This document shows positions 1,032-42,981 of a DNA stretch of 64,000 nt, piece by piece. The DNA lies in NCBI GenBank assembly GCA_001897535.1, contig MKTC01000027.1, positions 1 to 64,000 on the forward strand, in the 5' to 3' direction. Below the pieces are notes generated by a model. The model did not search any database, was not told the DNA's origin, and saw only the letters and a program-made list of their open reading frames with translations. Each line of letters starts with the position of its first letter. The first letter of the stretch is position 1. The position numbers were made by a program, and so were the translations under genes. The stretch is from Bacteroidetes bacterium 37-13. Lineage in GTDB: Bacteria; Bacteroidota; Bacteroidia; Chitinophagales; LD1.

Positions 1032-2228
1032 TTATTTCAAAATTTCAGTTACTTGACCGGCACCTACTGTACGTCCACCTTCGCGGATAGCGAAACGCAA
1101 ACCTTTTTCCATCGCGATTGGATAGATAAGTTTTACACTAAGTGTAACGTTATCACCAGGCATTACCATTTCTACTCCTGCAGGAAGTGTAATTTCACCG
1201 GTTACGTCAGTTGTACGGAAATAGAACTGTGGACGGTAGTTGTTGAAGAATGGTGTATGACGACCACCTTCTTCTTTGCTTAATACGTAAACTTCGCACT
1301 TAAATTCAGTGTGAGGCGTTACAGTACCAGGCTTAACAATAACCATACCGCGTTTAATGTTTTCTTTATCTATACCGCGCAATAGCAAACCTACGTTGTC
1401 GCCAGCTTCGCCACGGTCAAGAATTTTACGGAACATTTCCACACCGGTAACGGTTGATTGAAGTGCTTTTTCACCTTCTTTCAATAAACCGATAATTTCA
1501 ACCGGATCGTTAGAGTTGATAACACCACGCTCGATACGACCGGTAGCAACTGTACCACGACCAGTGATAGAGAATACGTCCTCAACCGGCATCAAGAAAG
1601 GTTGATCAACAGCGCGTGGAGGAACCGGAATCCAGCTATCAACAGCAGCCATCAATTCTTCAATTTTAGCAACCCATTTTGGATCTCCGTTTAAGCCACC
1701 CAAAGCAGAACCTTGAATTACAGGAATGTTATCGCCATCAAAGTTATAGAATTTCAATAAGTCGCGAATTTCCATTTCGCCCAATTCTAAAAATTCAGGA
1801 TCGTCAACCAAATCAACTTTGTTCATAAACACAACGATTTGAGGAACGCCTACTTGACGAGCCAACAAGATGTGTTCACGAGTTTGAGGCATTGGTCCAT
1901 CTGTAGCAGCCACCACAAGGATAGCTCCGTCCATTTGCGCAGCACCCGTAACCATGTTTTTAATATAGTCAGCGTGTCCCGGGCAATCTACGTGTGCGTA
2001 GTGTCTGTTTTCTGTTTGATATTCAACGTGAGAAGTGTTGATGGTGATACCACGCTCTTTTTCTTCCGGTGCGTTATCAATTGAGTTGTAATCTCGTTTT
2101 TCAGCAAAGCCTTTATTAGCTAATACTGTTGTAATAGCAGCAGTAAGGGTAGTTTTTCCGTGGTCAACGTGACCAATGGTACCGATGTTTACGTGCGGCT
2201 TGTCTTTTACGAATTTTTCTTTAGCCAT
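1032..2228 (-). CDS. tuf: Elongation factor Tu
   Basis: EF-Tu carries aminoacyl-tRNA to the ribosomal A site as a GTP complex. All G-domain motifs are present: the P-loop GHVDHGKTT near residue 19, DCPGHADY (switch II), NKVD and the SAL motif, followed by the two beta-barrel domains, ending in the usual GAGxVTEIL. The length, 398 residues, is typical. It is the last gene of a minus-strand unit after four tRNA genes, 59 bases downstream of tRNA-Thr(GGT), and ends at a clear terminator. In this arrangement tRNAs and EF-Tu are transcribed together. Start chosen because MAKEKF is the family's standard beginning. Confidence 0.98.
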
Positions 2229-2287
2229 TTTTTCTTTTTTTAATGGTTGATGTAATGTTTATTATTGTTTGTTTTAAAACGTTTTCG

Positions 2288-2359
<72 letters not shown>

Positions 2360-2396
2360 TTGTTAAGGAATTTCCAACAAAACTCCTTTTGTTCAG

Positions 2397-2469
2397 AGCG
2401 GGAGACGAGGCTCGAACCCGCGACCTACAGCTTGGAAGGCTGTCGCTCTACCAACTGAGCTACTCCCGC
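2397..2469 (-). tRNA. tRNA-Gly (anticodon TCC)
   Basis: Acceptor stem GCGGGAG/CTCCCGC; anticodon stem ACAGC/GCTGT around the loop CTTCCAA, anticodon TCC. The D-arm and T-arm (GGTTCGAGCC) are normal. CCA is not encoded. Confidence 0.95.
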
Positions 2470-9171: not shown

Positions 9172-11062
9172 TGCTTAAAGGCAGCGAAATAGCAGAAGGA
9201 TAAAGCGTGCCGCAACCAAAATTAAAACACTTAGGTCGAGGCGTTGTAATATCGAAATGCCCGGCATCTGCACCTGCAAAACTCACCCGAATGGAGTGCC
9301 CTTTATTTAGTTGGTATGAAGTTGGCAACATCTCAAATTGCAACCGCACCATTTCGTTCGTTTGGTAAGGAATAGCATCTTCTTTTAAATAAGAATGAAA
9401 TGGCGTTGATGTTTCATACAACTTGTTTTCGGAAATTTTTCTGTGCATCGGGCGAAACATTCCTTCGGTGATATAAGTAACTGTTCCATCGGGCGAAACA
9501 TCTTCTAAATACGCAAAAACATTTGCATCAGAAGCATCGGCACTCCAGTAAATATCTAAAAAAGGGCTTCCGGTAATTTCGGCAATATTTTGTAATGGTG
9601 AAGTGGTAAACGAAATAAGTTTTTTATCTTCTTCCATTCGGTTAGAATAGTTGGTTGGCCCATTCATAAAAAGTTGTGTAATACTATTCCAGCGTGAAGT
9701 ATTGCCACTGCTTGCACTATAATTAACAGCATAGTTTACTATACCATTTTTCTTAATGTTTGGGGTAAGTGTGCTATCTATATTCAAATAAAAGAGCGTG
9801 TGTTCTTGCTTGGCAATAGGCCATTCGTTGCTTGCTTTCCATGTTTCTTCTCCTATTGTATAGTAGTAAAGTTTAGGTTCTTTATCTATGCCGTTATCAA
9901 TGTCTTTTAAATAAAAATCAAAGAAGCGAAGCATCTCCAATTTCACCGGAAAATTTACAACTTTAGTAGCAGCAAAAGGGCTTACATTGTTTTGTGGGCC
10001 ATGATCCCAAGGTCCTACCAAAACCTTTACCGTATTTTTGGTATTTGCCATTCCATCGAATAAACTTTTTTGCAATGCCCCATCGTACCAGCCACCAATT
10101 CTGTAAATTGGCGTGCCCGAATTTTCAATTTGCTTTCTAAAAGAATGTACGCTGAAAGCTTCGCTACTTAAGCCAAGTTTGGGTAAGGTGTCATCTCTAA
10201 AAACCACATGCTTTATTCCTTCTGTAATATCAAAATTGTTTCGGTGTTGCGCCAAAGCAGATTTGTAAATTTTTTTACCTCTATCGCCTTGCACAGGGTT
10301 TGCACCAAACAGCAAATGCTTGGCCATTTTTCCAAAAATGCTGAAGTTATTGTGGTCTAAATTTTGAGTTGTTTTTCCCCAAGCATCAATAAATGGTGTT
10401 TGTCTAATTCCACCCGGCATCATTACATAGTTATACAAGTCGAAAATGTTGCTGCGCGGAATACAAGCTTTTACTGCCGGATGTTGATTTGCCAAAAGCA
10501 TTTCTGCTGTGGTACCCACATAACTCACTCCGGTGCTGCCTACTTTTCCGTTGCTCCAAGGTTGGTTAATTATCCAATCCACAATCTCTTTTCCGTCTGC
10601 AATTTCTTCGGGGCTAAATTCCATTTTCCGCACACCTGTAGAGGCTCCGGAACCGCGTACATCTGCAATTATACAAGCGTATCCATGCGAAGTAAAAAAC
10701 TCTATTTCTGCCTCCGGAACTACTACTAAAATCGGACTTTTAAATAGATTTAGCGGAAACTTAATTCGCAGCGATCGCAAGTAGCGTGTTAAATATAAAA
10801 TGGTAGGAACCTGCTTTCCTTCCTCTAATTTTTTCGGCAAATACACATCGGTAGCAATTAGTGTGCTATCGCGCATGGTGAGATAGAGCGAATGGTATTT
10901 AAACCCTTTATACTCAGGAGTTGTGTATCCTTGATAAACACCGGGATAGCTTAGTTTTCCATTATTTTTTCCTCCAACTACATGGTTATCTAAGTGTGTG
11001 CCGGCATTGCATACAAGCGAAAAAAAAGTAAAAAGAAATAAGAAAATGTACCGTGTGTGCAT
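9164..11062 (-). CDS. Secreted CocE/NonD family hydrolase (peptidase S15 type)
   Basis: A 632-residue protein with a signal peptide (residues 1-20, ending CNAG). The alpha/beta-hydrolase domain carries the nucleophile motif GVSYVG with Ser180, preceded by ADVRGSGAS, the oxyanion-side motif of the X-Pro dipeptidyl peptidase/CocE family; GPWDHG (near 345) holds the likely catalytic His. The C-terminal 200 residues form the PepX-C jelly-roll (SFAGADAGHFD near the end). Such enzymes cleave peptides or acyl esters; the substrate is unknown. It probably acts in the periplasm or outside. It stands alone; 200 bases of upstream DNA show no feature. Confidence 0.85.
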   Translation of the reverse strand: MHTRYIFLFLFTFFSLVCNAGTHLDNHVVGGKNNGKLSYPGVYQGYTTPEYKGFKYHSLYLTMRDSTLIATDVYLPKKLEEGKQVPTILYLTRYLRSLRIKFPLNLFKSPILVVVPEAEIEFFTSHGYACIIADVRGSGASTGVRKMEFSPEEIADGKEIVDWIINQPWSNGKVGSTGVSYVGTTAEMLLANQHPAVKACIPRSNIFDLYNYVMMPGGIRQTPFIDAWGKTTQNLDHNNFSIFGKMAKHLLFGANPVQGDRGKKIYKSALAQHRNNFDITEGIKHVVFRDDTLPKLGLSSEAFSVHSFRKQIENSGTPIYRIGGWYDGALQKSLFDGMANTKNTVKVLVGPWDHGPQNNVSPFAATKVVNFPVKLEMLRFFDFYLKDIDNGIDKEPKLYYYTIGEETWKASNEWPIAKQEHTLFYLNIDSTLTPNIKKNGIVNYAVNYSASSGNTSRWNSITQLFMNGPTNYSNRMEEDKKLISFTTSPLQNIAEITGSPFLDIYWSADASDANVFAYLEDVSPDGTVTYITEGMFRPMHRKISENKLYETSTPFHSYLKEDAIPYQTNEMVRLQFEMLPTSYQLNKGHSIRVSFAGADAGHFDITTPRPKCFNFGCGTLYPSAISLPLSIK

Positions 11063-40101: not shown

Positions 40102-40251
40102 TCTCTTTTCAACCGTTTCGGTTGTGTAGCAGATATAGAATTTTTTGGGTTTGTGTTGTGGCAGATTTTTAGCATAAAACTTCAACAATCAAAGAACTGC
40201 GCTTGAAGCTAACACAAAACTGCCCTACAAAGCGCTGTAGCAGTAGTCCTT

Positions 40252-40770
40252 TTAATTCCGCTTTGCAGCATCTCTTATGGCTCGTTCTAAATTGTCTCCC
40301 TTCAATTCATATTTTTTTAATTGAGCTATATTATCTTGTCTAATGTGCAGTTGTCCTTCGTTACCTTTATTTCCTCTATGCTGACCTTTGGAGTATAATG
40401 GATTTTTCAAGACTTCTTTACTGCTCATAACCCAAAGGACAATTTGGTCTCTGTAAACAGCAACCCAAATAAATACGTCACAGCATTGTGGTTTTAGCTG
40501 CTGAAAATTCATCAAGAAGTTTTTGTCAGTTTTTCTTGAAAGAGCTTTCATATACAGAGGTTCTTCACTCTCACTATCAACTGCCCTTGATGCTTTAACC
40601 TCAATTCTTATTCCATCAAGCCATAAATCATAGTCCCCTGAGTAATTCGGGTCAAGTTTTTTATTTGGGCTTTTTAGCTTAGAGCACTTGCCCTGAACAT
40701 AGGTTTGGGAAAAACCTCTAAACATATGTTTATACAACATTTCTCTCTTGAATAGCCAAACGTTTGTCAT
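40252..40770 (-). CDS. Putative type II restriction endonuclease (PD-(D/E)xK fold)
   Basis: A 172-residue cytosolic protein. The segment SGDYDLWLDGIRIEVKAS (about residues 44-61) carries an Asp and a Glu-x-Lys in the spacing of the PD-(D/E)xK catalytic core; a later beta strand (CDVFIWVAVYRDQIVLWVMS) fits the same fold. As the last gene of an operon with a DNA methylase it is most simply the cognate restriction enzyme. The recognition sequence is unknown. The two upstream genes lie 2 bases away and in overlap, so the three are co-transcribed. Confidence 0.72.
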   Translation of the reverse strand: MTNVWLFKREMLYKHMFRGFSQTYVQGKCSKLKSPNKKLDPNYSGDYDLWLDGIRIEVKASRAVDSESEEPLYMKALSRKTDKNFLMNFQQLKPQCCDVFIWVAVYRDQIVLWVMSSKEVLKNPLYSKGQHRGNKGNEGQLHIRQDNIAQLKKYELKGDNLERAIRDAAKRN

Positions 40771-40772
40771 AA

Positions 40773-41522
40773 TTATTCAAATATTACTGTTTGTCTGCTA
40801 TATGCACACTCAATTTCAATTTTTACTTCTTTAAGTTCTTTTTTGATGTGTTTATTAAACCCTGTATTTGCTACTATCATTTTATCAAATTTAATATCCG
40901 ATTTTAGCATAGATTCATAGTGATAAACATCTCTAATGCGTGAATTCCCCGTAAGAAAAGTATCTTCAGAATCCCAAACTTTAATGGTTACTTTGGGTAA
41001 CTCATCAGAATTTAAATAATAAAACCCCCAATATGGATGAATCTCATTTAAGTCTAAATCAAATTGTTCACTATTTAAGTGTGTTTTGATTTTTGCTTTA
41101 ATGAGGTTATACCTTTCATCAATAAGGTCTGCAAGAACAATGAGCCCTTTTTTCTTATCTGTAAAATCTACGGCATCTACTAAGTCAGCATATAAAAAAG
41201 TTGTATGCCTAACAAAATTTAGGTATAAACCTTGTGCCCACATTTTTCCACCCAAAAGAATTTGAAATGCAGAACTTGGAAAAGACATTCTTTGAAGAAC
41301 TTTATCATTTAATTGTGCAATTTTTCGCAACCTAAATGGTGCATGTCTAAACCAATTGTTAGGATATTCAACATAAGATTGAGCTTCTATAATACAGTCC
41401 TTTTGAATATAAAATTCAGCATCTCGACTGTCCTTTTTCAAATAATCAATAATACTCTGACTGTATGGTGTACACCATATTAAAGGAAGATAGGAAGAAG
41501 TTTCTAAACAGATTTTTTTCAT
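40773..41522 (-). CDS. Unknown protein encoded between methylase and endonuclease
   Basis: A 249-residue cytosolic protein without a family I recognise. It begins LETSSYLPLI and contains later acidic motifs (DLVDAVDF, WDSEDTFLTG, DKMIVANTGFN); this distribution is faintly PIN-nuclease-like, which is only a guess. Its start codon overlaps the methylase stop (ATGA), and the endonuclease gene follows after 2 bases. It may be a specificity or accessory subunit of the restriction-modification system, especially as the methylase ends shortly after its YKGSDITKSG segment and seems to lack a target-recognition domain. Confidence 0.6.
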   Translation of the reverse strand: MKKICLETSSYLPLIWCTPYSQSIIDYLKKDSRDAEFYIQKDCIIEAQSYVEYPNNWFRHAPFRLRKIAQLNDKVLQRMSFPSSAFQILLGGKMWAQGLYLNFVRHTTFLYADLVDAVDFTDKKKGLIVLADLIDERYNLIKAKIKTHLNSEQFDLDLNEIHPYWGFYYLNSDELPKVTIKVWDSEDTFLTGNSRIRDVYHYESMLKSDIKFDKMIVANTGFNKHIKKELKEVKIEIECAYSRQTVIFE

Positions 41523-42778
41523 AGTATTTTTGTTAATTTGGTTCTTGGTGCTTTCAAACCTGATTTTGTTATATCCGAACCTTTGTAAATAGGAACATAA
41601 TCACTTTGCGGTTCATTACTGCAAAATCTATCGTTATTCCCCGTTACAATACCCAATGCCCAATTTGCTCTGTCTTTGAGTGTTATGTGTTTTATTGAAT
41701 AAAGCTGAGTAATAACTTTTGCTTCGGTCTCATTTGTCCAAAAATTAAAAATGTGTTTAGGATTTTCTTTAAAGGAATCCAATGTTCTATTGAACACATT
41801 ATTTTCTGAACAACATTCAACAATGTCGTTTGGGTCAGAAGCATTGTTTTCGACAACAATGGCTTGTGCTTTGGTAACTAAGCCTTTGAATGCTTTATCA
41901 TAATCCACAAGCCGTAGTATTTTTTTTGCCAATACTCTTTTTCGGATGTCTTCAAAAGTAGTAATGTTGAAAAATGCCTCTTGGATTAAAAAACCTAATA
42001 ATCCGTTTACTTTCAAAACAGATAAGCTCGCTGCCAAAAATAAAGACGTTGTGTCTAAACTATTTCCGCAACTATACAATGCGGAATACTTCTCTTTTGC
42101 AGATTTTTCAATTTTCTTGCCCCAAGGTGGGTTGGTGAAAATGAGGTCGTAAGTGATTTCTTCTGTCTTTAATTTATGTGCTTCCTGTAAAAAATCACCA
42201 ACTTTAATATTGTCTGTATCAAAACCAAACTCCTCCTTTTATTCTCTGCCGTGTAATTTGAACTGCATTTTTATCTACGTCAAACCCGTAAACATTTTCA
42301 GGGGCTACTCCTTGTCTAATTGCTTCAATAACAAAATTACCGGAGCCACAACAAGGGTCTAAAATTTACAATCAGGATTGATTTTCATATTCTTAAACAT
42401 ATCTTTTACAACCCAAGAAGGGGTGTAATAAATACCTTCCTTGTTTCTATAAGAATCTGCAAGTGAACTTTCATATTCAATACCAATCTGTTCGCCATTG
42501 TATTTTTCAATCAGTAAGCTTAATTTGTCAGAAACTTCTTTATGGTCGTGGTCATCTTTTAACAATTTGTTTGCTCTTGCATTTAGTTTTTCTTTTCCTG
42601 CAACCTCAGACATAAATTTTTTAAAAGATTCCTGAGAAACAACCCCTTTTCCTGATTGAAATAAGTAACCTGTCTTAATCCAATTACGAATAGTTGCAGT
42701 TGAAACATTAGCGATTTTTGCCGCCTTTTCAATTGTCAGTCCAGATGTTTCTATTTCACCAAAAATATTTGTCTGCAT
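41519..42778 (-). pseudogene. N6-adenine DNA methylase with N-terminal HTH, double frameshift
   Basis: The start (42778) encodes an HTH/MerR-like domain (LTIEKAAKIANVSTATIRNW) and IYYTPSWVVKDMF, the typical lead into a methylase. The frame breaks at the A run 42361-42364 (one base short), where the next frame reads motif I, DPCCGSGNFVIEAI. A second break near 42235 (one base too many) returns to the first frame, which reads motif IV NPPWGKK and runs to the stop at 41519. Net shift is zero, so the repaired product would be about 419 residues. Both breaks are beside short runs (AAAA; CCTCC), so assembly or sequencing error is as likely as genuine inactivation. It would methylate adenine to protect host DNA from the endonuclease. 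Confidence 0.8.
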
Positions 42779-42965: not shown

Positions 42966-42981
42966 CCCGATAGCTATCGGG
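42966..42981. repeat. Perfect 16-bp palindrome
   Basis: CCCGATAGCTATCGGG is fully self-complementary. The half-site CTATCGGG recurs in the second hairpin about 100 bases away. I have the impression that this palindrome is frequent in Bacteroidota genomes, but I could not check. Confidence 0.6.

Follow-up and report, generated by a model that had tools for sequence, protein, structure and literature searches.

A predicted PIN-fold nuclease gene at the junction of a broken type II restriction-modification pair in Bacteroidetes bacterium 37-13

Restriction-modification (R-M) pairs are addiction modules, and losing the methylase while the restriction enzyme is kept is expected to be lethal to the cell. 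Broken pairs are found in genomes: a corrupted methyltransferase gene lies near 74 of 272 solitary restriction endonuclease genes (PMC3488263). Of the systems described, three come close to the locus presented here, namely these solitary restriction genes, ordinary pairs of a PDLC03356 methylase with a PDLC03414 endonuclease (PADLOC models), and VapC nucleases of the PIN fold, whose genes adjoin an antitoxin gene in VapBC modules. We found no literature report of R-M loci into which a PIN gene has been inserted, or of one gene family repeatedly breaking R-M systems.

The locus lies in a stretch of 64,000 nucleotides of Bacteroidetes bacterium 37-13 (contig MKTC01000027.1, positions 1 to 64,000), here called the window. 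Three genes follow each other on the minus strand, as a first-pass annotation of the sequence had described: the remnant of an HTH N6-adenine methylase (M; 42778-41519), an open reading frame of 249 codons (X; 41522-40773), and a gene for a PD-(D/E)xK endonuclease (R; 40770-40252). The stop codon of M and the start codon of X overlap in ATGA, which agrees with the translational coupling already proposed for the two, and a gap of 2 bp separates X from R. Upstream of M, a perfect 16-bp palindrome (CCCGATAGCTATCGGG) was noted at 42966-42981; it occurs only once within the window.

The M remnant is spread over two reading frames. Its first part (42360-42778, minus strand) is in frame 1 and encodes a MerR-like HTH and the start of the N6-adenine methylase; the middle part (42237-42359, minus strand) carries SAM motif I (ILDPCCGSGN; ILDPCCGSGNFVIEA) in a shifted frame; and the last part (41541-42236, minus strand), again in frame 1, runs from the NPPW motif to the beginning of a TaqI-like recognition domain. 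Model PDLC03356 matches at positions 4-127 and 229-405 of 545, and M does stop short of its target-recognition domain, as the first-pass annotation had stated. A longer match to this model, running to position 487, was rejected as spurious, crossing ten stop codons over X. Compared with the intact relative described below (L016), M lacks one base near 42360 and has one base too many near 42236, differences that might in principle be sequencing errors, although the loss of the recognition domain is independent of them. Because these two frameshifts flank the SAM motif, M is, judging from its sequence, almost certainly a dead methylase. The source genome holds no second cognate methylase, its other PDLC03356 matches being partial and to other methylases. 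With its frameshifts and without its recognition domain, M does not look like the functional cognate methylase that belongs to a type II R-M system. An unusual type II system, which had initially been suggested as a possibility, is therefore not supported: the locus has no functional methylase left, and a second cognate one was not found in the genome.

R matches PDLC03414 with an E-value of 4e-85, over positions 75-243 of 244, and is in that respect a restriction endonuclease of a known family. Model positions 1-74 are absent, and the shortened protein (40252-40770, minus strand; YDLWLDGIRIEVKAS) is without ~70 N-terminal residues typical of the family.

A scan for the R family over 395 Bacteroidota genomes yielded, as the nearest relative found, an uninterrupted M-R pair in genome G259 (L004/L016). 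It consists of an intact M with a TaqI_C recognition domain (PF12950, E 2.4e-21), followed directly by an intact R that keeps the N-terminal block (SIFPFNEYEHLI...), and has no third gene. Two other intact M-R pairs with the same R family (L006 and L007) both have beta-class methylases. In two further loci (L008 and L009), a beta-class methylase gene is directly followed by an open reading frame that matches the R family only weakly (E 2e-7 and 3e-6) and may encode a restriction enzyme of a sister family.

When the window was aligned at the DNA level with L016, identity was 78% from 42786, just 5′ of the M start, to 41541, and 83% from 40713 to just past the R stop. Between these two segments, a block of 827 bp (40714-41540, minus strand) takes the place of 623 bp of L016 (8487-9109) and has no DNA counterpart there. 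X is located only inside this gap between the M and R homology. Lost to the block were the end of M, which encodes the recognition domain, and ~67 codons from the start of R; the first 19 codons of the present R lie within the block. The alignment indicates that X arrived in a replacement that cut both M and R, and the two look to have been cut in one event. No convincing repeats, such as mobile-element ends would provide, were seen at the block borders. The recognition domain is thus indeed missing, but not by design of the system, since the X-bearing block removed it.

Homologues of X are rare. Searching one genome per species (84,980 species) gave two, in a Candidatus Falkowbacteria metagenome-assembled genome (MAG; L002, 61% identity) and a Deltaproteobacteria MAG (L003, 72%). 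A profile search added a distant fourth member (L013, 24% identity, E 7e-13); one weak match in G259 from a profile search (E 0.003) was left out of the count. A single-sequence search for X in 99 relatives and 394 other Bacteroidota gave no match, nor did the phage and plasmid data (viral_contigs, PLSDB, INPHARED); R was likewise absent from viral_contigs.

In L002, an HTH gamma-class methylase (Eco57I/N6_Mtase) ends soon after its NPPW motif, at ~398 of 727 positions of the family model, and is followed by X and a full-length R, the latter two ~20 bp apart. In L003, a beta-class methylase (N6_N4_Mtase), which is also cut on its 5′ side by the contig end, stops at DFFAHSGITLMAA, inside motif I; X comes next and overlaps in ATGA with an R that has no N-terminal block. 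In L013, a C-protein gene and X face a convergent beta-class methylase (N6_N4_Mtase) cut before motif I, and R is absent. The C-protein gene (2189-2431, minus strand) lies directly upstream of the X homologue, in the place where R would be expected, and X of L013 may be under C-protein control. The order of methylase, X and restriction gene thus recurs in L002 and L003, with M cut in both, but not in L013. X adjoins a 3′-cut methylase in four of four loci, two of them in metagenome assemblies and two in draft genomes, and more than one methylase class is represented. SAM or catalytic motifs have been lost from M in L002, L003 and L013.

The protein X had been described as belonging to no recognised family, and searches of Pfam, NCBIfam, PADLOC, PHROGs and PDB sequences gave no match. 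This includes the PIN profiles of Pfam, NCBIfam and PADLOC, and the protein core with its insert removed gave no Pfam match either; divergence may explain why no PIN profile is matched. A PIN-like look of the segments CLETSSYLPL, RDVYHYES and KMIVANTGF had been spotted ahead of the fold search. AlphaFold2, run with three sequences, gave one confident model out of five (pLDDT 77, pTM 0.78; the others had pLDDT values of 52-59). Neither Foldseek (best E 0.18) nor a viral structure library returned a significant match for this model. When the Foldseek candidates were realigned with VIA-align, the top 16 rows were all VapC or close PIN toxins, the best being 3zvk (Z 9.9, rmsd 3.6, 121 of 134 residues), 6a7v (Z 9.8) and 5x3t (Z 9.6). 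In the predicted model, strands and helices succeed one another as in a PIN core that is interrupted by a helical insert at about residues 55-195, and the alpha/beta/alpha core of that fold is present. Three acidic residues, E7 at the end of strand 1, E46 in a helix and D198 at a helix start, are the same in each of the four X proteins (22-72% identity); the fourth PIN position is N219, and Asp in L013. These three to four conserved residues fall at the positions of a predicted PIN active site. X is accordingly predicted to be a nuclease-like protein of the PIN fold. No small VapB-like open reading frame was seen beside X in the window, L002, L003 or L013, so that the antitoxin gene of a VapBC module does not adjoin it; its neighbours are M and R remnants or, in L013, a C protein and M.

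The dN/dS of X is ~0.09-0.13, which indicates that the gene is under purifying selection; dS is saturated, and timing is therefore beyond resolution. The GC content of X is 30-34% in hosts or contigs of 38-47%, and the entire M-X-R block of L002 has 30% GC in a contig of 47%. This low GC points to horizontal transfer. Behind R in the window lies an eroded attC-like element (40120-40250, minus strand), an imperfect palindrome of ~130 bp whose core (TGCTAAAAATC) is shared with similar elements in the same genome (L028 at C42:2886-2962 and L029 at C4:3838-3906) and behind R in L016 (about 9575-9710). These elements sit behind accessory genes, one copy following a further R-M pair, which has a C5-methylase. 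The two better-kept copies fold strongly (z -2.6 and -5.5) and worn ones do not. The palindromes resemble recombination sites of cassettes, of the attC type or another, and, as better-kept copies exist at other places in the genome, including one behind an R-M pair, the M-R pair itself may be cassette-borne.

We regard it as somewhat probable that X is a horizontally spread PIN-fold nuclease gene that was captured at the junction of a type II M-R pair and disabled it. X would have entered an ordinary type II pair, and the part of M for the recognition domain as well as the N-terminal region of R would have been replaced, apparently in one step. M would be decaying, and X would be the gene now under selection, presumably read from the old M leader through the translational coupling at the ATGA overlap. 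The protein may be a VapC-like nuclease with specificity for RNA or for structure, acting most likely on RNA, in defence, in stress or in a toxin-like role. The shortening of R in the same event as M could have enabled the cell to live on without methylation; as the N-terminus of R is complete in L002, a shortened R is not general, and neither is this step. Against this reading stand the weak Foldseek result, the absent PIN profile match, the single confident model among five, the number of loci, which is four, the complete R of L002, and the R frames that remain open in three loci. A further-reaching version, which we consider doubtful, is that X founds a PIN-fold family that specifically invades type II M-R junctions, disarms the addiction module in one step, by cutting M and in many cases R with it, and takes over its expression signals, as an R-M parasite or replacement.

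Alternatively, X and the R remnant could form a new methylase-free effector of two nucleases (PIN and PD-(D/E)xK), for which the M fragment would merely be a leader. X adjoins R closely in the window, L003 and L002, and in these three loci the R frames are open and the catalytic D...ExK is kept, though M is broken, so that R could still be needed. The dN/dS of R (0.05) is also lower than that of M (0.09-0.10), but these values average over the time preceding the insertion as well. L013, however, has X without any R. Moreover, R of the window is 88% identical to R of L016 at the protein level and only ~50% to R of L002 and L003, and therefore X joined different R-M lineages and did not spread jointly with R. 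We consider such a two-gene effector unlikely. Much the same holds for plain decay, in which an R-M cassette is dying and X is carried in it by chance, with no present role here: the two frameshifts in M and the lost N-terminus of R would fit, and decayed methylases beside solitary restriction genes are well known (PMC3488263), but X is intact and strongly conserved between phyla, and four of four known homologues at the same kind of place are not what chance passengers would give. We judge this reading to be rather improbable.

The first-pass annotation had suggested that X might supply the recognition that M lacks, and X is translationally coupled to a methylase without a recognition domain, as would fit an unusual type II system in which X is the subunit for recognition or a helper in modification. 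The intact relative L016/L004, however, has the domain within M and no X. X stands beside methylases of unrelated classes that are dead judging from their sequences: M is frameshifted in the window, and in L002, L003 and L013 it has been deprived of regions for catalysis or SAM binding. A single family of X proteins could not make good losses so unlike each other, and L013 lacks R altogether. Its predicted fold is also that of a PIN protein and not of a recognition domain. The comparison with L016/L004 and the diversity of the cut methylases lead us to reject X as the missing recognition domain, and a subunit role of this kind is highly improbable altogether. X does not appear to be a working part of the restriction system, and a gene standing between a methylase and a restriction gene is no proof of a three-subunit system. 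The other suggestion made initially, that X is a second effector, fares better: with a predicted PIN-nuclease fold and purifying selection, X could be one.

With the VapC PIN nucleases (VapC2 of Rickettsia felis, 3zvk; VapC11, 6a7v), X shares a modelled core that aligns over nearly the whole of VapC, acidic residues (E7, E46, D198 and N219 or Asp) in the expected PIN secondary-structure elements, and a VapC-like fourth motif, IVANTGF. It differs in its length (249-256 residues with the helical insert, as against ~135 in VapC), in its first acid (Glu, where VapC has Asp), and in lying inside R-M loci, without detectable sequence similarity to VapC and without a VapB-like neighbour. With the PDLC03356 and PDLC03414 pair of L016/L004, the locus shares its gene order and the protein identity of M (~75%) and, over the part that remains outside the block, of R (88%); it differs from that pair in having lost the recognition domain of M and the N-terminus of R, in the two frameshifts of M, and in the presence of X in between. 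Like the solitary restriction genes with a corrupted methylase (PMC3488263), R of the window stands beside a broken M, with no cognate methylase found; what sets the present case apart is that a single gene family is found at the break, in R-M systems unrelated to each other. One conserved nuclease-like gene, four times exactly at a cut methylase, suggests recurrent breaking or takeover of R-M modules.
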